The translations under genes were made by a program, and so were the position numbers. From an uncultured Methylomonas sp. (GTDB lineage Bacteria > Pseudomonadota > Gammaproteobacteria > Methylococcales > Methylomonadaceae): a DNA stretch of 64,000 nucleotides. The DNA lies in the NCBI GenBank assembly GCA_936941155.1, contig CAKZJE010000106.1, positions 62,001 through 126,000 on the forward strand, given 5' to 3'. Under the pieces are notes generated by a model, which was given only the letters and a program-made list of their open reading frames with translations, searched no databases and was not told the DNA's origin. Position 1 is the first letter of the stretch. Each line of letters begins with the position of its first letter. Shown here in pieces: positions 6,084-34,696 of the stretch.

Positions 6084-7028
6084 ATGCAAGCAACAGAACT
6101 AAAATGGTTAGGTTCACCGATTAGCAAACACACTGGCACGATAGAGCAAATTATCGCTCATATTCCAGAATTTGAACGCCGACCGTTTTCATTATCGAAT
6201 GAGCAGCCTTTGATAAATGAAAATCAGTTTATGGATATGATTGTGCGTAAGGCGGTTGCAAATGATAAGGCTGAAATTCCTATTGGTGTGGTGTCAAAAA
6301 GCTATCAACTGGTTCAGCACAAAGAAGTCATTGATACCATTGTCAATGCTTTAAGCAAAGTTGGCATAAAACCCGAAGACGTTACAGCCGAGCTACAAAT
6401 AACAAAATATGGCGAACGGGTAGGTTTGCATTTTCAATTTCCAGAAAAACATGACATTGATCCGGGTGATGGACATAAATTAGCCCTACGATTAGGTGTT
6501 TTTAATTCAGTGGATGGTAGTACCCGATTTAGAGCGGTTTTAGGCTGGCTACGTTTTGTTTGTAGTAACGGTATGGTAGTCGGTTCTGCCCAGAACGATT
6601 ACAAACGCCGACATAATCAAACATTAGTGATTGCAGATGTAAATGAGTTACTGACGCAAGGCATTGAGTTAGCCGTTGCAGATCAGGCAAACTTACAGCG
6701 TTGGTGCAAGACAGCATTGCATCAGGATAAATTGAGCCGTTGGATTGATAAAGAGGTTTCCAATAAATGGGGAGTCATAGCGGCAACACGGGCGTTTCAT
6801 ATTGCGACCAGCGGCAAGGATGTTAAAGTTGTGCCGTTTGCCAAAAAAGCCCTGCCTTCTGAGAAAGAAGTTGAAAAGGGTAAATCAGTGCCAGGGTCAG
6901 AAAAGCCAGCAAAGAACTTGTATGATGTTTCGCAGGTGCTAACATGGCTTGCAGGGCAACGTAACGATGTTGAAGAACAGCTAAACTGGCAGCGCGATGT
7001 CCCTGAATTGATGGCTGCTTTGGCTTGA
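6084..7028 (+). CDS. DUF932 (phage/plasmid-like TIGR03299-type) protein
   Basis: The protein has 314 residues from the chosen ATG (MQATELKWLGSPISKHTG), which is preceded by an AGG-containing site; an in-frame ATG at 6003 would add 27 unconvincing residues. The pattern IPIGVVSKSYQLVQHKEV near the start, then FNSVDGSTRFRAVLGWLRFVCSNGM, is characteristic of DUF932, a family found on plasmids, phages and integrative elements. Its biochemical role is unknown, although single-stranded DNA handling has been suggested from gene context. It follows the repeat block and precedes hsdM by 42 bp on the same strand, so it belongs to the island. Confidence 0.8.
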   Translation: MQATELKWLGSPISKHTGTIEQIIAHIPEFERRPFSLSNEQPLINENQFMDMIVRKAVANDKAEIPIGVVSKSYQLVQHKEVIDTIVNALSKVGIKPEDVTAELQITKYGERVGLHFQFPEKHDIDPGDGHKLALRLGVFNSVDGSTRFRAVLGWLRFVCSNGMVVGSAQNDYKRRHNQTLVIADVNELLTQGIELAVADQANLQRWCKTALHQDKLSRWIDKEVSNKWGVIAATRAFHIATSGKDVKVVPFAKKALPSEKEVEKGKSVPGSEKPAKNLYDVSQVLTWLAGQRNDVEEQLNWQRDVPELMAALA

Positions 7029-7070
7029 AAACATTAAGAATACTGAAGAAATTTAAATACAAAGGGAACG

Positions 7071-9128
7071 ATGGATAACAACATACTGCAATACGAATCA
7101 AAAATCTGGAAAACTGCTGATTTATTATTGGGCGCGGGAATTAAACAAAGTGATTTTCCTAAATATATGATGCCGTTTTTCGCGCTGATTATGGTGGAAA
7201 GCCGTTTTATTCAGTCAGTTGAGGCATTAAAAACCAAGTTAAAAGCCAGTGGCGATAGTTTAAGTCTGGAAGATTTTGCCGCTGAAATTATGGATCAAAG
7301 ACAAGGCTATAACCGCTTTCAACTAGAAAAAAACAAAACCTTAAAAGATATTTGTAAAAGCGAAAAGACCTTTGAAACCGATTTTGATTTGTATTTGAAG
7401 GGGTTTGATTCTGAAACTCAAGATTTGCTAGGCGTTGATAAATCCAATAATGAAGAGAAGTTTTTAGATATTACCGGTATCAGCGGTTTATTGAAGAAAA
7501 AAAGCAAAGATACCTTACTTCAGTTTGCGACGGTATGGAGTGAAATTGAGTTACACAGTTTTAGCAACAGCGAAATAACCACTCTTGAAGAGCATATCAA
7601 GCGCAAATGGGCGGATATATCCGCAGAAACCGCCGGAGAGCAATATACGCCTGATGATGTCATCGCCCTGATTGCTGAAATTATCACCAATCATGTGACG
7701 GAAGGTGAACAGCATTTAACCATTTATGACCCGACTTGCGGCGGTGGCAATATGTTGTTTGGTGTTGAAGACAGAATTAAGGAAAAGTTTAATCGTTTAA
7801 CCGCAACTTACGGGCAAGACTGGAATGATGCGTTATACGCTTTGGCAAAAATTGAGAGTCGGTTTCGTAAAAACTCGCGGATTGAATACGGTAATACTTT
7901 AACCCGCGACAAGTTTGCGCTGAATAAACCGTTTGATGTGGTGGTTGCTAATCCGCCTTATGGATTGGACTGGAAAGGTTATTACAACGACATAAAAAAC
8001 GATGTCACCGGACGTTTTCCTTTTCTGCCGTCCATATCCGACGGGCAGTTGCTGTTTATGCAGCATATTATTTCCAAGTTGGATGAGGTTGGCGTGGGCG
8101 TTGTGGTTCATAACGGCTCAACTTTATTCAGTGGTGATGCAGGTTCAGCCGAAAGCAATATCCGTAAATGGATGCTGGACAGTGATATTGTTGAAGCCGT
8201 GATTCAATTACCGACCGATGAATTTTTTAACACGGGCATTTATACCTATTTGTGGGTTTTGAACAAAAACAAGCCCGCACACAAAAAAGATAAACTGATG
8301 CTGATTAATGCCAGCGAAAAGTTTAAGCCGCTGAAAAAAAGCAAAGGTTCAAAACGTAAAGAAATTGATGAACTGAGCCGTTTAGAGATTGCCGAAACCT
8401 TAAGCCGCTTTGAAAATAACGACTATGCACGGGTATTTGATAAGGAGTTTTTCTACTTTAATAAGCAGGCGATTTTATTAACCAATGTGGACGAAGACGG
8501 CAACACGTTTGCTGCGCAGTTGGAAGAGGACAAAACCAGCCTAAAACTAAAACCTGTTAAATTGAGTAATGGTGAGCGCGAGCTGGCAGAATTCACTGTT
8601 ACTCAGTTTGATGCGGATAAATACAGCAGTTTGATTGATTTGTTTGTCGAAGAGATAAAGCCATTTATTGATTCGCTCAACTACAAAGAACAGCCTTTAG
8701 TGATTAGCACTGCAACCGAAAGCTATCATTTTGATAATGAACGCGAAACGCTGATTAAAACCACAGGTAATAAAACGGAGGTTTTAGGCTGTGGCAAAAT
8801 CGTGGTGAAAGCGGTTTATAAAAAAGCCACCAGCAAATTAGCGCAGCGCATTGAAATCAGTGTTGAATTAACGCCAGACACGCAAAAGGATTATGAAATT
8901 ATCCCTTTTCATAAAGATGAAGCGGTTAATCAACAAGTGATTGCTGATTTTATGGCGAAGTACATACCTAAGCCGTTTGGCTATCTTGATAACGTAGTCG
9001 GGGTGGAGATTAATTTTAACAAGGTGTTTTATAAGCCTGAGACTTTACGCGCCGTGACGGATATTTTAAGTGATATTGAAAGTCTTGATGAACAGTTGCA
9101 AACTTTAGAACAGGAGTTACTGCTATGA
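7071..9128 (+). CDS. hsdM: Type I restriction-modification DNA methyltransferase subunit
   Basis: HsdM transfers a methyl group from S-adenosylmethionine to adenine N6 within the site chosen by HsdS. The 685-residue protein has YTPDDVIALIAEI near residue 196, the SAM-binding motif I DPTCGGGNML near 223, and the catalytic N6-adenine motif IV NPPYG near 297. It has an N-terminal helical part and a long extra C-terminal region (after about residue 480) that makes it longer than the roughly 500-residue classical HsdM. A good ribosome-binding site (AAAGGGAA) precedes ATG 7071. The stop overlaps the next start by 4 bases (ATGA), so the operon is translationally coupled. Confidence 0.9.
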   Translation: MDNNILQYESKIWKTADLLLGAGIKQSDFPKYMMPFFALIMVESRFIQSVEALKTKLKASGDSLSLEDFAAEIMDQRQGYNRFQLEKNKTLKDICKSEKTFETDFDLYLKGFDSETQDLLGVDKSNNEEKFLDITGISGLLKKKSKDTLLQFATVWSEIELHSFSNSEITTLEEHIKRKWADISAETAGEQYTPDDVIALIAEIITNHVTEGEQHLTIYDPTCGGGNMLFGVEDRIKEKFNRLTATYGQDWNDALYALAKIESRFRKNSRIEYGNTLTRDKFALNKPFDVVVANPPYGLDWKGYYNDIKNDVTGRFPFLPSISDGQLLFMQHIISKLDEVGVGVVVHNGSTLFSGDAGSAESNIRKWMLDSDIVEAVIQLPTDEFFNTGIYTYLWVLNKNKPAHKKDKLMLINASEKFKPLKKSKGSKRKEIDELSRLEIAETLSRFENNDYARVFDKEFFYFNKQAILLTNVDEDGNTFAAQLEEDKTSLKLKPVKLSNGERELAEFTVTQFDADKYSSLIDLFVEEIKPFIDSLNYKEQPLVISTATESYHFDNERETLIKTTGNKTEVLGCGKIVVKAVYKKATSKLAQRIEISVELTPDTQKDYEIIPFHKDEAVNQQVIADFMAKYIPKPFGYLDNVVGVEINFNKVFYKPETLRAVTDILSDIESLDEQLQTLEQELLL

Positions 9129-9343
9129 CCACGATTACTTTAAATGACGACTTGATAAGTCGGGTAATTGCTAAAAGCCATTATCAAAATGCAGAGGAAG
9201 CGGTTATTAAAATACTGTCTGATTATTTGAAAAAAAACAATGAGCCGAGTATTACTGAATTATTAGCCATGCCAGAATGCGCTGATATTGACTTTAATCC
9301 GCCAAAATTAAACAGTCTTTTTAATCCAGCAGATTTGTCATGA
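9125..9343 (+). CDS. Antitoxin-like small protein (VapB/Phd position)
   Basis: This 72-residue protein begins MTTITLNDDLISRVIAKSHY, followed by NAEEAVIKILSDYLKK. That beta-strand/helix/helix pattern fits a ribbon-helix-helix DNA-binding antitoxin. The C-terminal part (ITELLAMPECADIDFNPPKL) is the likely toxin-neutralising tail. It overlaps hsdM and the PIN toxin gene by 4 bases each. The VapB-like assignment rests on size, fold pattern and its position before a PIN toxin, not on a strong family motif. Confidence 0.7.
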   Translation: MTTITLNDDLISRVIAKSHYQNAEEAVIKILSDYLKKNNEPSITELLAMPECADIDFNPPKLNSLFNPADLS

Positions 9344-9768
9344 ATTTTTTATTAGATACGAATGTGATTTCTGAATTGCGCAAAGCCAAAACAAAAAAAA
9401 TAAATGAAAATGTTAAGGCTTGGGCGGAAAGTGTTTCACCGAATCAGTTATTTTTGTCGGTTATCAGTTTGCTTGAATTAGAAATGGGGATTGGTTTAAT
9501 TGAACGGCGTGATAAACCGCAAGCCGCTTTATTGCGCGTTTGGCTTAATCACCATGTATTGCCGACTTTTCAGGAGCGTGTTTTGCCTATTGATACCACT
9601 ATTGCGTTGTGTTGTGGCAAATTGCATGTTCCAGACCCGCGTTCAGACCGTGATGCTTTAATTGCCGCGACTGCGTTAGTGCATAATATGACGGTGGTGA
9701 CTCGTAATGTGGCTGATTTTGAACCTACAGCGGTAAAAATACTGAATCCCTGGGATTTTTCATTATGA
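9340..9768 (+). CDS. VapC/FitB-like PIN-domain toxin
   Basis: PIN domains of this class are Mg-dependent ribonucleases. The 142-residue protein has the four expected acidic positions: D6 in FLLDTNVISEL, the Glu of SLLELEMGIGL near residue 48, D in DRDALIAATA near 105, and D in VTRNVADFEPT near 125. The FitB-like signature NVADFEPTAVKILNPW is clear. It overlaps both the antitoxin and hsdS by 4 bases, so it is co-translated inside the restriction-modification operon. A mobile toxin-antitoxin insertion, or a guard that punishes loss of the operon, are both plausible readings. Confidence 0.85.
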   Translation: MNFLLDTNVISELRKAKTKKINENVKAWAESVSPNQLFLSVISLLELEMGIGLIERRDKPQAALLRVWLNHHVLPTFQERVLPIDTTIALCCGKLHVPDPRSDRDALIAATALVHNMTVVTRNVADFEPTAVKILNPWDFSL

Positions 9769-26002: not shown

Positions 26003-26266
26003 ATGAAAACACTTATTTCAATCTCGTTGTTGCTTTTGCTCACTGGTTGCAAACAAGACCAACAAAACGAATTAGCTCGCAAAGTCGTTGAATATTTAGA
26101 CGGTAATTATCAAATTACTTACGCCAACGGCTCAACGTCAAAAACTTGGATTGTTCGCAATGGCAAAGTCACCTCTAACCCAAAAGGTTATTACTTTTTT
26201 TGGGATGAGAAAAAACATTACATCCAAACGCCGATTGAAAATACCTTTATGGAGGAAATTGATTAA
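26003..26266 (+). CDS. Small lipoprotein of unknown function
   Basis: The 87 residues start MKTLISISLLLLLTGCKQDQ. LLTGC is a good lipobox, so Cys16 should be lipidated. The mature part (YLDGNYQITYANGSTSKTWI and onward) is short and has no recognised domain. Its TAA stop overlaps the A of the rlmJ ATG, so the two genes are translationally coupled. Confidence 0.65.
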   Translation: MKTLISISLLLLLTGCKQDQQNELARKVVEYLDGNYQITYANGSTSKTWIVRNGKVTSNPKGYYFFWDEKKHYIQTPIENTFMEEID

Positions 26267-27114
26267 TGCTCAGTTATCGTCATGCTTTTCACGCTGGAAA
26301 TTATGCGGATGTGGTTAAGCACTTGATTTTAAATTTAATAATGGAGTCTTTATGCAAAAAAGAATCGCCATTTTGTTATTTAGAAACCCACGCAGGCACG
26401 GGTTTTTATGATTTAAGCAGTGAATTTGCCGAAAAAACCGGCGAATTTAAAGAGGGAATTCAACTTTTGTGGCGATTGCCGGAAGCTGTGATTCATCCGT
26501 TAGCGACAACGTATATGCGCACACTGCGGGCGTTTAATCCGGGGCAGAATTTGAACACTTATTTAGGCTCGCCTGCATTTGCGCGGCATTTTTTGCGTCC
26601 GCACGATGCCATGAATTTGATGGAACTCCACCCGCAGGATGTGGAATTGCTGAAAAATAGTTTCAAAAAAGATAAACAAGTGCATATTCATCAGCGCGAC
26701 GGTTTTGAGGGTTTGATTGCGCTGGTGCCGCCGAAAGAAAAACGTGGGCTGGTGTTGATTGATCCGTCTTATGAGTTGAAACAGGATTATTTGCAGGTGG
26801 TGGAAACCTTGAAACTGGCGCATAAGCGTTGGCAGCAGGGGATTTATGCGGTGTGGTATCCGTTGTTGAATGGTTTGCCGCAGGAGGCGATGCTGAAAAA
26901 GTTGGCAAATAGCGGGATTAAAAAGATTTTGGTGGTGGAGTTGAGTCGTGAAGCCAGCCACACGCCGCGCGCGATGTATGGCACGGGGATGGTGATTATT
27001 AATCCGCCGTATCAATTGGAGGAAAAGTTGCAGGCGTTGTTGCCTTGGTTGTGGAAGTTGTTGTCGCCGCAGGCTGAGGGAAAATGGCGGGTTGAGTGGT
27101 TGGTGGGTGAGTAA
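26266..27114 (+). CDS. rlmJ: 23S rRNA (adenine2030-N6)-methyltransferase RlmJ
   Basis: RlmJ methylates A2030 of 23S rRNA. The 282 residues start with the family signature MLSYRHAFHAGNYADVVKH and then have LETHAGTGFYDL (SAM motif I region) near residue 44, LHPQDVELL, and the catalytic motif LVLIDPSYELKQDY near 161 (DPPY-type, here DPSY). The C-terminus MVIINPPYQLEEKL is also family-typical. The length fits. It overlaps the upstream lipoprotein gene by 1 base and precedes the defence-like cluster by 3 bases. Confidence 0.93.
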   Translation: MLSYRHAFHAGNYADVVKHLILNLIMESLCKKESPFCYLETHAGTGFYDLSSEFAEKTGEFKEGIQLLWRLPEAVIHPLATTYMRTLRAFNPGQNLNTYLGSPAFARHFLRPHDAMNLMELHPQDVELLKNSFKKDKQVHIHQRDGFEGLIALVPPKEKRGLVLIDPSYELKQDYLQVVETLKLAHKRWQQGIYAVWYPLLNGLPQEAMLKKLANSGIKKILVVELSREASHTPRAMYGTGMVIINPPYQLEEKLQALLPWLWKLLSPQAEGKWRVEWLVGE

Positions 27115-27117
27115 AAT

Positions 27118-27921
27118 ATGTTTGATTTTCTAGGGATATTTGAACAACTTCACGAAGCTCAAGCGCATTTTATCGGTCAAATAGGCGAGTCTGCTTTTAG
27201 TCAATATGCTCAACAACATTTGAGCAATGATTATTATATTTTTAACAACATTGTTCTAAAAGCAAATAATGGCACAACACAAATAGATCAAATTATTCTT
27301 TCTAAATTTGGTCTGTTTGTTGTTGAAATAAAAAGTTATAAAGGCTGGATTTGGGGCGATGCCAATAATGCGCAATGGACACAAACATTACCAAGTGGTA
27401 AATATAAATTTCAAAATCCTTTAAGACAAAACTATAAGCATATTAAAACCTTGCAATCTATTTTAGGTTGCCCTGAAAGTCATTTGAAATCTCTTATTGT
27501 TTTTTCAGCGCATTCTGAATTTAGAACTGAATTACCTAATAATGTAGTGCGCGGCGGTATAGACTACATTAACTTTATTAAACAATATCAATCAGTTTTG
27601 CTATCCGATAAAGAGGTAACTCTTATCATTGAAAAAATACTGAGTAATCGTTTGAGTAATGAAGAACATCAGGCGCATATTCAAAAAATAAAAGAGCAAT
27701 ACAATAATGCTGATGAAAAGAATGCGCCTCAGTGTCCACGATGCGCTAAGACAATGGTTTTGAGAAAATCAAAATCCGCAAATAATTATGGACAGACTTT
27801 CTGGGGCTGTAGTCAATATCCTAATTGTAAAGCGATTATTAATATAAAGGGCGATAAAGAAAAAGCAGAGGAAGCAGCAAGGCAAGTTAATAGACTTATT
27901 AATTCTCTTTTAAGATTTTAA
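27118..27921 (+). CDS. NERD-domain nuclease-like protein with zinc finger
   Basis: NERD is a nuclease-related domain of the PD-(D/E)xK class. In this 267-residue protein IGESAFSQYAQQHL begins the domain, and TQIDQIILSKFGLFVVEIKS gives Asp near residue 58 and the E-I-K catalytic pair near 70. A C-terminal topoisomerase-type C4 zinc finger follows from residue 203, with CPRC and then CSQYPNC, separated by KSANNYGQTFWG. Such NERD plus zinc-finger proteins are widespread with unknown function. The gene starts 3 bases after rlmJ and ends 15 bases before the ATPase gene, in a same-strand run with the PIN and Fic genes. Confidence 0.85.
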   Translation: MFDFLGIFEQLHEAQAHFIGQIGESAFSQYAQQHLSNDYYIFNNIVLKANNGTTQIDQIILSKFGLFVVEIKSYKGWIWGDANNAQWTQTLPSGKYKFQNPLRQNYKHIKTLQSILGCPESHLKSLIVFSAHSEFRTELPNNVVRGGIDYINFIKQYQSVLLSDKEVTLIIEKILSNRLSNEEHQAHIQKIKEQYNNADEKNAPQCPRCAKTMVLRKSKSANNYGQTFWGCSQYPNCKAIINIKGDKEKAEEAARQVNRLINSLLRF

Positions 27922-27935
27922 ATATTAAAAATAAA

Positions 27936-29105
27936 ATGCTAACTGAATTAAAACTTTCAAATTTTAAATCTTGGCGCGAGTTGGATATGAAACTCGGTCG
28001 GGTGACGGGGTTATTTGGCACAAATAGTTCAGGGAAAAGTAGCATTTTGCAGTTTTTGTTGATGTTGAAACAGACCGCAGAATCTTCTGATAAAGGATTG
28101 GTTTTGGATTTAGGCGGACAAAATCAATTAGTGAACTTGGGTTCGTTTAGAGATTTAATTTATCAGCATCAAGAAGACTTAGCACTGAAATGGAGTATAG
28201 ATTGGATACCAAGTCACTTTCAGCATCAAAGATTATGCAAAATGACTAGTGAAATTATTTTTATTGATAAACAAATAAAACTATTTTCACAAACATATTA
28301 TCTTTCTAGTTCTACAGCTCATGGTTCAAGCGTTGTTGAGCCAGCTTATAAAAAAATGATGGAGCAAACATATTACCTTGCTCCATTACGCGAATATCCT
28401 AAGCGAGAATATCAATGGTCGGGGGCAAGTCCATCACATGTCGGTTATCGTGGTGAAAATTCCATCAATGCTATTTTAGCCGCTACCATTCGCAATGAAA
28501 CCAGAACATTACCTAATTCAGAAAAAAAACCTTTTCAAGAAGTGATTGCGTATTGGCTAAAAGAATTAGGTTTAATTCACGAATTTTCCGTTAAAGAAAT
28601 TGCCGAAGGCACAGGTTTATTTCGCGCAATTGTAAAAAAATCCCCAGAAAGCCCCGAAGCCTTTTTAACCGATGTCGGTTTTGGTGTTTCGCAAGTGTTA
28701 CCTGCTTTAGTTCTACTGTATTACGTTCCCCAAGGCAGTATTATTTTAATGGAACAACCGGAAATTCATTTGCACCCGTCCGTGCAAAGCGGTTTAGCTG
28801 ATGTGATTTTGCAAGTGTCAAAACAGCGCAATCTGCAAGTAATTGTCGAAAGCCACAGCGAACATTTATTGCAACGTTTTCAACGCCGCGTTGCTGAAGA
28901 AAGCTATGCAGTGGACGAGTTAAAACTGTATTTTTGCGACATTCAGCAAGGTGAATCGAAATTAATTGATTTAAAACTCAATGAATACGGTGAAATTGAG
29001 AATTATCCGGATAATTTTTTTGGCGATGAAATGGCTGAAATCGCGGCAACTCGTCGAGCGAGCTTAAAACATAGAATTCGCAAAGCAGAACAACAAAATG
29101 GCTAA
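27936..29105 (+). CDS. AAA-type ATPase with DUF3696 C-terminus
   Basis: This 389-residue protein resembles the SMC/ABC-like ATPases of OLD and defence proteins. It has Walker A GLFGTNSSGKSSILQ near residue 26, an ABC-signature-like stretch DVGFGVSQVLPALV near 246, Walker B IILMEQPEIHLHP near 269, and the switch His region VIVESHSEHLLQRFQRRV near 307. The last 70 residues contain the DUF3696 hallmark LNEYGEIENYPDNFFGDEM. There is no TOPRIM domain. Its 3' end overlaps the PIN gene by 8 bases, a coupling that suggests one functional unit. The role is not known; defence is inferred from architecture and context. Confidence 0.8.
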   Translation: MLTELKLSNFKSWRELDMKLGRVTGLFGTNSSGKSSILQFLLMLKQTAESSDKGLVLDLGGQNQLVNLGSFRDLIYQHQEDLALKWSIDWIPSHFQHQRLCKMTSEIIFIDKQIKLFSQTYYLSSSTAHGSSVVEPAYKKMMEQTYYLAPLREYPKREYQWSGASPSHVGYRGENSINAILAATIRNETRTLPNSEKKPFQEVIAYWLKELGLIHEFSVKEIAEGTGLFRAIVKKSPESPEAFLTDVGFGVSQVLPALVLLYYVPQGSIILMEQPEIHLHPSVQSGLADVILQVSKQRNLQVIVESHSEHLLQRFQRRVAEESYAVDELKLYFCDIQQGESKLIDLKLNEYGEIENYPDNFFGDEMAEIAATRRASLKHRIRKAEQQNG

Positions 29106-29568
29106 TTTTGTCATTGATACGAATGTCGGAATTTGTGCGAATGGGCGAGATACTCATGCTTCTTTGCGTTGCCAATTAGCGTGCAGTGATTTTTTAGAAA
29201 CCTGTCGCACATTACATATCACGCTGGATAATCAAAATTTGATCATGTCCGAATATGAAAAACACTTTTATCATAAAGGCGAACCTGGCATGGGCGATGC
29301 GTTTTTCAAATATTTGTATCACAATCAACATGCTGGCGACAAAATTCAACTTGTCGAAATCACTCCAATCAATGAAGAAAAAACTGAATTTGCGGAACTT
29401 CCTAAAAATCAAGTTGACCCATCCGACCGCAAATTTTTAGCCACTGCTGTCGTTGCAAAAGCCATTCTTGTGAATGCAACCGATAGCGATTGGACAGAAC
29501 AAAAAAACTTGCTTGAAACACTGCAAATTGAAGTCAAACAGCTTTGCCCTGAACATTCTTGCAAATGA
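29098..29568 (+). CDS. PIN-like nuclease paired with the DUF3696 ATPase
   Basis: The 156 residues begin MANFVIDTNVGICANG, with Asp7 in the usual first PIN position. Further acidic residues follow: Glu in IMSEYEKHFY near residue 45, Asp in VDPSDRKFLATAVVAKA near 105, and Asp in LVNATDSDWTE near 125. This is a plausible PIN active-site quartet. The gene overlaps the ATPase gene by 8 bases. It is not preceded by an antitoxin-like small ORF, so it is not an ordinary VapBC pair; the ATPase would be the partner that controls it. Confidence 0.7.
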   Translation: MANFVIDTNVGICANGRDTHASLRCQLACSDFLETCRTLHITLDNQNLIMSEYEKHFYHKGEPGMGDAFFKYLYHNQHAGDKIQLVEITPINEEKTEFAELPKNQVDPSDRKFLATAVVAKAILVNATDSDWTEQKNLLETLQIEVKQLCPEHSCK

Positions 29569-29586
29569 AATTTGAGAAAAACCTTG

Positions 29587-30579
29587 ATGAAAAACAGCCA
29601 ACCAACAGAACCTTTCGCGCCTTTATCTGACTCTCAAAAACAAGAACTTCTCGCATTAAAAAACAACTTTCACCGCTTAACTCTGGCAATGGATTCTGAA
29701 CAGCCGCCGTTTAATCTATTGGAAATTTACCCCGAAACCAGCGATATTGGCATTTTGTCAGCGCAATTGACTGATTTAAAAAAATGTTTAGACAGTTTTA
29801 GACCGCTTTCAGCGGAGCAAGTTGCGCATTTAAACGAAGTTTTTGATACGGAATACACTTACGAATCGAACAAAATAGAAGGAAATACGCTGACTTTGAT
29901 GGAAACCGATTTAATTATTAACAAAGGTTTGACGGTTTCAGGTAAAAAAATGCAGGAACATTTGGAAGCGGTGAATCATAAAAACGCGATTGAATACATC
30001 CGCGATATTGCGCACAGCGAAACAGCGTTGACGGAAGAAGTTTTAAGAAAAATCCACGCGATTGTGTTGGCTGGCATTGATTTTAAAAACGCTGGAAATT
30101 GGCGCGTGGACAGAGTGCGCATTGCCGGAAGTCAGCATATTTGCCCAAATCCGATTAAAATTCCAATGCTGATGAATGAATTTTTTGACTATTATGAAAC
30201 CCATAAAAACACCCAGCATCCGGTGGTTTTATCTGCGAATCTGCACGAAAAATTAGTCACCATTCATCCGTTTATTGATGGCAATGGCAGAACCGCGCGG
30301 CTGTTAATGAATCTGATTTTATTGCAACATGGCTATCCGATTACGATTATTTCAGCGGAAAATAAAGCTCGCGCCGACTATTACAAAACTTTGGAAATGG
30401 CGCAAATTTCAGCGAATAAAGACAATAGCGCGTTTGTTTTATTCGTTGCGCAATGCGTGAAGAAATGGTTGTTTGTTTATTTGGAAATGCTCTCAGCCAG
30501 CATTGGCGAAGAAAACAAAGAAAAAGGGTATTATTTTTTCAAAAAAATTGCGGCGCAATTGTTGATAACAACTATCTGA
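29587..30579 (+). CDS. fic: Fic-family protein
   Basis: Fic enzymes modify proteins by transferring AMP or related groups. The 330 residues have the inhibitory-helix motif near residue 90 (YESNKIEGNTLTLMETD, SxxxEGN type), which keeps class II Fic proteins silent by blocking the ATP gamma-phosphate. The catalytic motif HPFIDGNGRTARLLMNLI near residue 230 is complete, with catalytic His and HPFxDGNGR. ATG 29587 is chosen over the TTG at 29572, since MKNSQPTEPF starts there and a GAG-type site lies upstream. It follows the PIN gene by 18 bases. The target is unknown. Confidence 0.88.
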   Translation: MKNSQPTEPFAPLSDSQKQELLALKNNFHRLTLAMDSEQPPFNLLEIYPETSDIGILSAQLTDLKKCLDSFRPLSAEQVAHLNEVFDTEYTYESNKIEGNTLTLMETDLIINKGLTVSGKKMQEHLEAVNHKNAIEYIRDIAHSETALTEEVLRKIHAIVLAGIDFKNAGNWRVDRVRIAGSQHICPNPIKIPMLMNEFFDYYETHKNTQHPVVLSANLHEKLVTIHPFIDGNGRTARLLMNLILLQHGYPITIISAENKARADYYKTLEMAQISANKDNSAFVLFVAQCVKKWLFVYLEMLSASIGEENKEKGYYFFKKIAAQLLITTI

Positions 30580-30831: not shown

Positions 30832-31689
30832 TTATTTTTTCTTTTTAGTGAAAGACTTAATCCGGCTAAAAAACATACTTTCACTTAACATATCAGTCAA
30901 GCCAACGTTTTGTTTTTCTTCCTCTTCTTTTTCTTTGGCTTCTTCTATCTTGATTTCTTCCAGCCACTTAGCCCGCTGCTGCTGTTCTTCTTCCGCTTTT
31001 CGTTGAATCCGCTGTTTATCCTGATTATTAATATCCAGCTGAATAAAATCACTGTCTTGTCTGAGCATAAACCGTATCACTTCATCTAATAACGAATCAG
31101 TCACCGCCTCCGGCTCAAAGTTTTTCTTATACACGTTAAAATTTTCGTGATTGTGAATTAACAATCTGATTTTCGACTCGTTGTAATCCACTTCAAATTT
31201 AAAGCGCACCGGCACTTTTCGGGTGATATTAAACGCAGCCGCCTCAACACCACGACTATTAATAAACTGATTCCATTTTAACGGCAGATTTTTTGAGTTT
31301 AAAAACGCAATTTCTTGCTCAATTTTGGATCTGCCTTCCACTTCATAACTAAAACTGCCAGCACCTATGCAATTAAACAACACGTTGACCTGCATAATGC
31401 GATTAAAATCGGCAAGTCCACCATAACCATCGGTGTTAATTTTATAATCGGTTTGCGATAACGTGCCCATCTGTGGAAAGCGTTGACAATAATCCGTAAT
31501 TTCAATGGCTTTTTCTAAATAGCTTAAATGCTCAACGACTTCTTTAAGATCTTGATAGATTTTTTGCATTTTCGGCAAAATTTTAGCTTTATATTCGCCT
31601 TCTAATTGTTGCTGAACATCGGCTGCAACTGATTCATGCTTTTCTTTGCTAATTCTTTCGTTTCTTAATTGATCCAGAACACCCATCAT
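30832..31689 (-). CDS. Unknown protein with basic and acidic charged C-terminus
   Basis: The 285 residues have no recognised domain. The first 90 look helical and coiled-coil-like (LRNERISKEKHESVAADVQ, then KMQKIYQDLKEVVEHLSYLE). The middle is a mixed alpha/beta region (FNITRKVPVRFKFEVDYNES). A long charged helix follows (QRIQRKAEEEQQQRAKWLEE and onward), and the end is basic (RIKSFTKKKK). The start at 31689 overlaps the rlmB stop by 1 base, so it is translated from the rnr-rlmB transcript. A role near RNA is an inference only. Confidence 0.65.
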   Translation of the reverse strand: MMGVLDQLRNERISKEKHESVAADVQQQLEGEYKAKILPKMQKIYQDLKEVVEHLSYLEKAIEITDYCQRFPQMGTLSQTDYKINTDGYGGLADFNRIMQVNVLFNCIGAGSFSYEVEGRSKIEQEIAFLNSKNLPLKWNQFINSRGVEAAAFNITRKVPVRFKFEVDYNESKIRLLIHNHENFNVYKKNFEPEAVTDSLLDEVIRFMLRQDSDFIQLDINNQDKQRIQRKAEEEQQQRAKWLEEIKIEEAKEKEEEEKQNVGLTDMLSESMFFSRIKSFTKKKK

Positions 31690-32429
31690 TATTCCCCTTT
31701 TTGTCTTAATACTTCATAAATCATAATTGCTGCGGCAACTGAGACATTGAGACTTTCCACTTGTCCACGCATGGGTATTTTTACCAAAAAATCACAGTTT
31801 TCCTGTGTTAAATGGCGCATCCCTGTTCCTTCCGCTCCCATCACTAACGCCAAAGACATTTTTAAGTCTAAACTAAAAATCGTCTGTTCCGCCTCGCCTG
31901 TAGAGCCTATTATCCATATATTTTGCTCTTTCATCCAGCGCAAAGTACGGACTAAATTGGTCACTTGATAGACCGGCACAGTTTCGGCTGCACCACTGGC
32001 AATTTTGCAAACAGTTGGGGTAATTCCTATCGCATTATCTTTGGTAATAATAATGCCATGCACGCCAGCGGCATCGGCAGTACGCAAACAAGCCCCCAGA
32101 TTATGCGGGTCTTGCACATGATCTAATACCAGAAAAAATGCTGGCTCAGTTAAGCTCTTAATTTTATGTTTTAATTGTTCTTCTGACTGTACGCTAGGCA
32201 ACTCAACTTCAGCCACAATCCCTTGATGATTTTTGCCATCTGCAAATTTATCTAACTTTTTCTTATCCGCTATTTCAGTTTTAATATTTAAAGAATTCAA
32301 CTGAGTTTGCAATTCTTTTAAACGTACATCTTGCCGCTGACTATCCAGCCAAACTTGGGTGATTTTTTCAGGTGAATAATCAAGCGCGGCTTGTACGGCA
32401 TGAATTCCGAATAATTTACTTAGATTCAT
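31689..32429 (-). CDS. rlmB: 23S rRNA (guanosine2251-2'-O)-methyltransferase RlmB
   Basis: RlmB is a SpoU-family (trefoil-knot) enzyme that methylates G2251 of 23S rRNA. The 246 residues have the N-terminal substrate-binding domain starting LFGIHAVQAALDYSPEKI, then FFLVLDHVQDPHNLGACLRT (SpoU motif 1) near residue 103. VMGAEGTGMRHLTQENCDF (motif 2) and IPMRGQVESLNVSVAAAIMI (motif 3) form the SAM-binding knot. It overlaps the rnr stop by 4 bases (ATGA), a well-known rnr-rlmB coupling in gammaproteobacteria. Confidence 0.95.
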   Translation of the reverse strand: MNLSKLFGIHAVQAALDYSPEKITQVWLDSQRQDVRLKELQTQLNSLNIKTEIADKKKLDKFADGKNHQGIVAEVELPSVQSEEQLKHKIKSLTEPAFFLVLDHVQDPHNLGACLRTADAAGVHGIIITKDNAIGITPTVCKIASGAAETVPVYQVTNLVRTLRWMKEQNIWIIGSTGEAEQTIFSLDLKMSLALVMGAEGTGMRHLTQENCDFLVKIPMRGQVESLNVSVAAAIMIYEVLRQKGE

Positions 32430-34696
32430 TTTTTATGACGTTTTTTAACGTTTTTTTTAGGAGGGGTGGAAACCGGCAGCGGAATGGTTTTTTTCACTTT
32501 AACGGTGTGCAATAAATCAAAATCAATTTTCTTTTCGTCTAAATCGACTCGCGCAACTCTCACTTTAACGCTATCGCCTAAACGATAAGTGATGCCAGTG
32601 CGCTCGCCTTTTAAATGCCGTGAAGTGGCATCAAAATGAAAATAATCTTCCGGCAAGTTGGAAATGTGAACTAAGCCTTCCACATAAACATCTTTTAATT
32701 CCACAAAGAAACCAAAGCCTGTCACCGCAGAAATAATGCCGCTAAACTCTTCGCCGAGTTTGTCCTGCATATATTCACACTTTAGCCAATTCACCACATC
32801 GCGGGTTGCTTCATCTGCTCGGCGTTCATTTGCCGAACAATGCTCACCTAAGACAATCATATCTGGAAATCCATAGATAAAAGTTTCTGGCGGTTTCTCA
32901 GCTAAACAATGTTTAATGGCGCGATGTACTAATAAATCTGGATAACGGCGAATCGGTGAGGTGAAATGTGTATATGCCTCAAGTGCCAAACCAAAATGCC
33001 CTTTATTATCAGGACTATATACAGCTTGCGACATAGAGCGCAACAACACGGTATGAATTAAATGGGCATCGGCTCTGCCTTGACTGGCGTTAATCACCGC
33101 CATGAAATCCAGCGGCGTTGGTTCTTCGCCACCACCTAAATGCAATCCCATTTCGTTTAAAAAGGTTCTTAACGTCGCGAGTTTTTCAATGCCGGGCCCT
33201 TCATGGATTCGTAAAAGACGCGGAATTTTTTTCCGATTGAGATAACGTGCCGCTGCAATATTGGCACTAATCATAAATTCTTCAATCAATTTGTGCGCAT
33301 CATTGCGTTGTACTGGCACAATTTGTTCAATTTTGCGCTCAGTACCAAACACAATTTTAGTTTCTTGCGTTTCAAAATCCATTGCGCCGCGCTGTTCGCG
33401 TTTCACTCGCATCACTTTGTATAAAGCGTAGAGTTCTTGCAAATGCGGTAACAGAGGTTGATATTTTTTCGCTAACTCCGCATCGCCATCCACTAAAATT
33501 TTCGCAACTTCTGTGTACGTCATTCGCGCATGAGAGCGCATCACCGCTTCAAAAAACTTGGAGCGCAAAATAGTGCCTTCTGCATCAATCACTAGCTCAC
33601 ACACCATACACAGGCGATCTACGTCTGGATTGAGTGAACATAAGCCATTTGAGAGAATCTCAGGCAACATCGGAATAACTTGTTCGGGAAAATAAACGGA
33701 GGTACTGCGATTTTTGGCTTCATCATCTAAAGCGGTACTGACTTGCACATAGTGCGCGACATCAGCAATGGCAACCAGCAACTTCCAGCCTTTCGGTGTT
33801 TTTTTGCAAAATACAGCGTCATCAAAATCACGCGCATCTTCACCATCAATCGTAACTAACGGTGTATCTCGTAAATCAACTCGGTTTTTCTTAGCGGCTT
33901 CAGGCACATCTTTTTTTAGATGTTTGATTTCTTTGAGTAATTTATCCGGCCATTCATTCGGTAAATCATAAGACCGAATTGCAACTTCAATTTCCATGCC
34001 CGGAGCTAAATGTTTTCCTAAAACTTCAGTCACTCGCCCTATCGGCTGATGTCGTTGATTAGGTTGCTGCACAATTTCTGCGACAACAATTTGCCCTTTT
34101 TTCGCTTTTCCCAATCCTTCTTTTGGAATCAGAATGTCTTGCGCTATTTTTTTATTATCCGCAACGACAAAATAAAAACCTTTTTCACTAAACAATCGCC
34201 CGACAACTTGATGCGTATTTCTTTCCAACACTTCAACAACGGCTGCTTCGCGTCGCCCTTTCCTATCAAGTCCTGAAATTCGCACCACAGCACGGTCATT
34301 GTGCATCAGCTCTTTCATTTCGCGCGGTGATAAAAATAAATCCGCAGAACCATCATCAGGCTTTAAAAAACCAAACCCATCAGGATGCCCTAGCACTCGT
34401 CCGGCAATTAAATCTTGATTATTGACTAAACAATATTGCTGTTTGCGATTAAACAATAACTGCCCATCTCGTTCCATTGCTCGCAAACGGCGGCGCAGAG
34501 CTTCTAAATCCGCATCAGACTGTAAGCCAAATGATTCTACAATTTGCTTACGCTGCAAGGGTTGTCCTGCTTGCTCTAGCAAATGCAGAATCAGTTCGCG
34601 ACTAGGGATTGGTTGCTCATATTTCGCGGCTTCGCGTTGAGCATAAGGGTCTTGGGTTGATTTAAAATCAATATCGGGGGGAGACTTCTGGGTCAT
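32426..34696 (-). CDS. rnr: Ribonuclease R
   Basis: RNase R is a 3'-to-5' exoribonuclease that degrades structured RNA. The 756 residues have an N-terminal winged helix (RELILHLLEQAGQPLQRKQI), two cold-shock domains, then the RNB catalytic domain. The Mg-binding acids lie in LVTIDGEDARDFDDAVFC near residue 284. The S1 domain starts EFSGIISAVTGFGFFVELKD near 650. The C-terminus is lysine-rich (KKNVKKRHKK), which is typical of RNase R but not of RNase II. The gene is first in the rnr-rlmB-unknown operon. Confidence 0.95.
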   Translation of the reverse strand: MTQKSPPDIDFKSTQDPYAQREAAKYEQPIPSRELILHLLEQAGQPLQRKQIVESFGLQSDADLEALRRRLRAMERDGQLLFNRKQQYCLVNNQDLIAGRVLGHPDGFGFLKPDDGSADLFLSPREMKELMHNDRAVVRISGLDRKGRREAAVVEVLERNTHQVVGRLFSEKGFYFVVADNKKIAQDILIPKEGLGKAKKGQIVVAEIVQQPNQRHQPIGRVTEVLGKHLAPGMEIEVAIRSYDLPNEWPDKLLKEIKHLKKDVPEAAKKNRVDLRDTPLVTIDGEDARDFDDAVFCKKTPKGWKLLVAIADVAHYVQVSTALDDEAKNRSTSVYFPEQVIPMLPEILSNGLCSLNPDVDRLCMVCELVIDAEGTILRSKFFEAVMRSHARMTYTEVAKILVDGDAELAKKYQPLLPHLQELYALYKVMRVKREQRGAMDFETQETKIVFGTERKIEQIVPVQRNDAHKLIEEFMISANIAAARYLNRKKIPRLLRIHEGPGIEKLATLRTFLNEMGLHLGGGEEPTPLDFMAVINASQGRADAHLIHTVLLRSMSQAVYSPDNKGHFGLALEAYTHFTSPIRRYPDLLVHRAIKHCLAEKPPETFIYGFPDMIVLGEHCSANERRADEATRDVVNWLKCEYMQDKLGEEFSGIISAVTGFGFFVELKDVYVEGLVHISNLPEDYFHFDATSRHLKGERTGITYRLGDSVKVRVARVDLDEKKIDFDLLHTVKVKKTIPLPVSTPPKKNVKKRHKK

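Follow-up and report, generated by a model that had tools for sequence, protein, structure and literature searches.

A HEC-03-type ATPase–PIN gene pair in an uncultured Methylomonas sp. and its relatives

In PARIS, the ABC-ATPase AriA is a sensor of phage proteins that sequesters and then releases the tRNase AriB (PMC12409363). The Hma-embedded candidates (HECs) were defined in a 2024 preprint by Payne et al. A later paper citing that preprint states that several HECs, HEC-06 among them, showed antiviral activity, and does not name HEC-03 there (PMC12988326). Here we examine a gene pair from a 64,000-nucleotide stretch of an uncultured Methylomonas sp. (contig CAKZJE010000106.1, positions 62,001 to 126,000; hereafter the window, in whose coordinates positions are given), in which an ATPase gene runs into the gene of a small PIN-fold nuclease (27936–29568, forward strand). 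Judged by its sequence, the pair is a copy of HEC-03, a candidate anti-phage system already catalogued in PADLOC-DB, and an anti-phage role of the window copy is itself a candidate assignment. In a literature search, the sole use of the name HEC-03 that we found was in one paper, as a detection label, and a search for DUF3696 together with a PIN domain found no paper.

Identity and anatomy of the pair

When the window proteins were compared with Pfam and PADLOC-DB models, the ATPase (389 amino acids; 27936–29105, forward strand) matched the HEC-03B model PDLC04148 with an E-value of 2.9e-180 (598 bits), and the PIN protein (156 amino acids; 29098–29568, forward strand) matched the HEC-03A model PDLC04147 at 1.1e-67, its residues 3–156 covering positions 2–157 of 159. 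Both components of HEC-03 are thus present in their usual order, with the ATPase first and the PIN gene adjoining it, and the end of the former overlaps the start of the latter by 8 bp (ATGGCTAA, 29098–29105, forward strand). A first-pass annotation of this locus had recognized the overlap; it had also stated that no described system with this set of genes was known. This novelty is not supported, because PADLOC-DB already lists the pair as HEC-03, and the comparison with PADLOC models that the annotation had proposed as a check returned an already named system, an outcome it had itself named as counting against its view.

HEC-03B is an ABC/OLD-type ATPase with Pfam matches to AAA_15 (1.6e-24), AAA_21 (4.6e-18), and DUF3696 (5.6e-07). 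The motifs read in it at first pass are all present: a Walker A motif, the ABC-like signature GFGVSQ, a Walker B motif (E273-Q-P-E276-H-L-H280), and a switch histidine in ESHSE (305–309), and these, like the DUF3696 motifs, show little or no variation across 38 ATPases of the family. An AlphaFold 2 (AF2) model of the protein (predicted local distance difference test score, pLDDT, 84.8) matched SMC, Rad50, and PtuA in a tie at Z ~20. The window ATPase differs from other HEC-03 copies by a shortened variable insert, with a total of 389 residues versus 444–473 in the other full-length proteins; the difference maps to residues ~91–135, where the AF2 model is unreliable. The shorter protein may have arisen by partial deletion or may be a naturally short variant.

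The PIN domain falls below threshold in Pfam, with a best E-value of 0.0076, and its assignment is secured by the HEC-03A match together with a confident PIN-fold model (pLDDT 92.2). The acidic set that had appeared plausible at first pass (D7, E52, D107, D110, and D129) is intact in the window protein and invariant in 36 PIN proteins. The closest structural match of the model is the toxin VapC21 (Z 10.2, root-mean-square deviation 3.2 over 120 residues), followed at lower scores by other VapC toxins, PRORP/HARP RNase P, and SMG6, all of them ribonucleases. As noted at first pass, no antitoxin-like gene lies beside the PIN gene, whose upstream neighbor is the ATPase and whose downstream neighbor is a Fic gene. 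PIN domains without a cognate antitoxin are required for phage defence in the systems DS-3 and DS-5, so an effector of this type has precedent (PMC13092281).

The layout had been likened to PARIS and Septu with PIN as the effector, and the ATPase does resemble both AriA and PtuA. The AriA model of PADLOC matches it at 8.8e-28, far behind HEC-03B, and the small nuclease effector extends the likeness to PARIS, whose effector is a tRNase (PMC12409363). HEC-03 differs from PARIS in having a PIN rather than a TOPRIM effector and a DUF3696 tail on the ATPase. No TOPRIM family match of the AriB type was found in the partner protein with Pfam or PADLOC, its fold model being PIN instead, and membership in PARIS was rejected for want of the TOPRIM partner. 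The ATPase head is PtuA-like in profile matches as well as in structure, which brings in Septu and the PtuA + PtuB effectors of retrons Ec78 and Ec83; this likeness is at superfamily level, because SMC and Rad50 heads score equally. HEC-03 has PIN in place of the HNH partner, neither Pfam nor PADLOC gave a PtuB-type HNH family match in the partner protein, and membership in Septu was likewise rejected. The ATPases of three further PADLOC entries, NsnB (which we take to be a Menshen component), PDC-M55, and PDC-M07, are related to that of the window at 4.4e-63, 4.8e-47, and 7.3e-22, far weaker than HEC-03B, and the other components of those systems were not found at the locus. The PIN protein comes closest in fold to VapC toxins; it is partnered with an ATPase and not with a VapB-type antitoxin, and VapBC membership was rejected since the flanking genes are the overlapping ATPase and Fic rather than a small DNA-binding antitoxin.

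Recurrence and genomic context of HEC-03

A genome scan yielded 41 loci and a plasmid search 12 records (Aeromonas, Acinetobacter, Azotobacter, Rhodococcus, and Tistrella plasmids); random genome draws were also made by phylum, and 74 collected loci were compared. The pair occurs in at least seven phyla (Pseudomonadota, Acidobacteriota, Actinomycetota, Chloroflexota, Cyanobacteriota, Binatota, and Thermodesulfobacteriota), both on chromosomes and on plasmids, and in the random draws it was present in 15 of 398 genomes of the host phylum Pseudomonadota, 11 of 297 from the phylum of an Acidobacteriota locus, and 2 of 296 from the phylum of a Frankia locus. A phage-borne origin was considered and rejected, since two peptide patterns found no relative in IMG/VR and a tblastn search of 50,697 phage records found none either.

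The search for conserved DUF3696–PIN pairs proposed at first pass found the ATPase gene immediately ahead of the PIN gene, and reading in the same direction, at 72 of the 74 loci. The two exceptions are a PIN gene broken into two pieces (L069) and a PIN domain within a long open frame for which no ATPase was scored (L093). With gene starts assigned by rule, an ATPase–PIN overlap of 1–20 bp recurs in 31 of 45 loci and is therefore more than chance; a failure of the overlap to recur in other genomes, which the first-pass annotation had named as a possible refutation, was not what we observed. The loci closest to that of the window are in Methylococcaceae and Methylovulum metagenome-assembled genomes, in line with a host that is probably a methanotroph of that family. 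Five methanotroph loci (L035, L036, L038, L051, and L052) have the pair inserted between ccmE and ccmF, reading in the direction of the cytochrome c maturation operon and, in L051, accompanied by one extra small open reading frame (ORF); in L133, from a family member without HEC-03 (G005), the distance from ccmE to ccmF is ~745 bp. The predicted functional unit is two genes, ATPase and PIN.

Several copies are embedded in Hma, DISARM-like, and restriction operons. The pair stands behind HmaB in L067, between DrmMI and DrmA in L053, and behind a DrmD-type helicase in L041, and in L050 a type III restriction enzyme follows it; the window copy, behind rlmJ and a NERD gene, is outside any known defence operon. 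The first-pass annotation had proposed scoring enrichment near known defence genes, and at E-values of 1e-10 or better 119 neighbors of the pair matched 224 PADLOC models, compared with 44 for 117 control proteins taken from elsewhere in the pair-carrying genomes and some relatives. This enrichment is indicative only, because the counts are of models and a single protein can match many related ones.

Two individual loci bear additional features. In L032 (Methylovulum STB_151), a D12-class adenine DNA methyltransferase gene (8493–9401) lies directly behind HEC-03, along with one more gene. In L073, on the Acinetobacter soli plasmid pAS843-2, HEC-03B is annotated as two overlapping pieces (6639–8004), a possible frameshift; DpdE/DrmD-like helicase and DrmMI-like methylase genes precede it, and an HNH gene follows.

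RNA ligase in relatives and a possible mode of action

In 29 of the 74 loci (L070–L072, L074–L077, and others) the PIN gene is followed on its own strand by an RNA ligase gene of family PF09414, with Pfam E-values of 1.7e-17 to 2.9e-34 in seven loci tested and a distance of 25–59 bp from the end of the PIN match in 28 of the 29. Carriers include Aeromonas, Azotobacter, and Rhodococcus plasmids, Bryobacterales, Binatota, and Proteobacteria. Ligase-bearing loci occupy at least three places on the PIN tree, where ligase presence requires no fewer than 8 changes as against a mean of ~22 after shuffling; counting well-supported branches only, at least 6 are needed. No ligase-bearing locus was seen in the window's own well-supported 16-row PIN clade, in which two rows could not be judged; the window copy has no ligase, and no PF09414 protein was found in the host genome. 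No title or abstract describing an association of RNA ligase, PIN, and anti-phage function was found in a literature search that was mostly at title and abstract level and did not cover the HEC-defining preprint. Cleavage by PIN nucleases yields 5'-phosphate and 3'-OH termini that are direct substrates of Rnl2-type ligases. This, combined with the ligase association, makes RNA the likely target of the PIN protein and suggests that the ligase-bearing form is reversible.

On balance we lean toward a mode of action resembling that of PARIS, in which the ATPase would sense infection and gate a PIN ribonuclease acting on host RNA, probably tRNA. By this analogy we infer that HEC-03B forms a complex with the PIN protein, holding it inactive or docking it, and that the ATPase would release or activate its partner upon sensing an infection trigger; the freed nuclease would then cut host RNA, most likely tRNA, halting translation and phage growth in an abortive outcome. 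Several observations weigh against this. The nearest PDB matches of the PIN model are only ~10–20% identical to it, and the defence-context control is small at 117 proteins, with models rather than proteins as the unit of counting. The window ATPase is short by ~55–70 residues in an insert present in all other full-length members, and the window copy may be altered or inactive as a result.

Other functions for the two genes have to be set against this proposal. A self-maintaining element akin to a toxin–antitoxin module, carried on plasmids and chromosomes, with an antitoxin role for the ATPase and only incidental defence, would account for the VapC-like fold, the tight overlap, and the plasmid carriage; we consider it unlikely, in that the supposed antitoxin is an ABC ATPase whose catalytic motifs are fully conserved, no small antitoxin-like protein is present, and Hma, DISARM-like, and restriction genes are frequent nearby. 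It is quite unlikely that the PIN protein degrades phage DNA, as is thought for the Septu HNH protein PtuB, with the ATPase sensing DNA ends or DNA state: the PtuA, Rad50, and SMC heads that the ATPase resembles are all DNA-linked, but most of the proteins matched by the PIN fold are ribonucleases, and the partner added in relatives is an RNA ligase rather than a DNA ligase. The same ligase, with the sealable ends left by PIN nucleases, would suit a non-immune device for RNA processing or repair built from an ATPase, a PIN endonuclease, and a ligase. This we regard as very unlikely given that most loci, including the window, have no ligase, that the pair is embedded in defence operons and carried on plasmids, and that its distribution is patchy (15/398 in Pseudomonadota, 2/296 in the phylum of the Frankia locus).

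A different question is whether the unit extends to the neighboring genes. The first-pass annotation had described a defence-like cluster of four genes on one strand after rlmJ, and ORFs called from the sequence agree, in the order NERD (27118–27921), ATPase, PIN, and Fic (29587–30579), with spacings of 3 bp from rlmJ to NERD, then 14, −8, and 18 bp. The common strand and tight spacing (−8 to 18 bp) are what a single NERD–ATPase–PIN–Fic system would show, but such a system is highly improbable and was rejected because neither NERD nor Fic has a recurrent association with the pair. Fic was absent from the stretches examined around all 41 loci of the genome scan, NERD was near the pair in one of the 41 at a distance of ~4 kb, and neither was annotated beside the pair on five plasmids examined. 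The pair stands without them inside the ccm operon, and a 62% relative of the NERD protein occurs in the congener G002, a genome without HEC-03. The part of the earlier description that stands is the ATPase–PIN pair, recurrent near defence genes.

Returning to the proposed PARIS-like gating of a PIN ribonuclease, a broader and more tentative idea, possible rather than probable, is that there is a larger, as yet undescribed family of PIN ribonucleases gated by ATPases, with HEC-03 at one of its ends. Recruitment of an RNA ligase behind the PIN gene in at least three branches would let an infected cell cut its own RNA and reseal it later, making the shutdown reversible; in the window copy, which has no ligase, the shutdown would be one-way. 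Phage T4 uses an RNA ligase that it encodes to overcome an anticodon nuclease of its host; in the family proposed here the ligase would, in contrast, be on the bacterial side. The ligase-bearing relatives thus offer a directly testable idea, a reversible and self-repairing shutdown, while the window pair adds one more copy of a candidate already in the catalogue, and the comparison narrows the question to two genes with a likely RNA target.

Neighboring genes and boundaries of the locus

On the upstream side the chromosomal boundary is rlmJ (26266–27114, forward strand; Pfam RsmJ/RlmJ, 1.2e-78), and on the downstream side it is a reverse-strand block of a conserved ORF, rlmB/trmH, and rnr (30832–34696). 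Both are kept in congeners with other genes beside them; the four window genes lie at a synteny break, and the rlmB side continues differently too. Behind rlmJ, G002 carries a tilS-like gene and pyrG, both named by eye from the sequence. The GC content of the cluster is 0.32–0.39 versus 0.465 for rlmJ, which is compatible with acquisition but no proof of it given the window mean of 0.395. Promoter and terminator scans gave results no better than shuffles.

The two genes flanking the pair, both on the forward strand, are neighbors outside the system. The nuclease-like NERD protein (Pfam NERD, 6.3e-31) carries a C-terminal Top1-type zinc ribbon (7.3e-10) that the first-pass annotation had not listed. 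The start of the Fic gene was taken as the ATG at 29587, the mechanical ORF beginning at a TTG at 29572, and the protein matches Pfam Fic at 1.2e-23. A motif search located its catalytic motif HPFIDGNGRTAR and, upstream of it, SNKIEG, which resembles the motif by which self-regulated Fic enzymes are inhibited. In the congener G001 (L026, 4982–6379), two similar-looking genes without a Pfam match replace the window cluster behind rlmJ.

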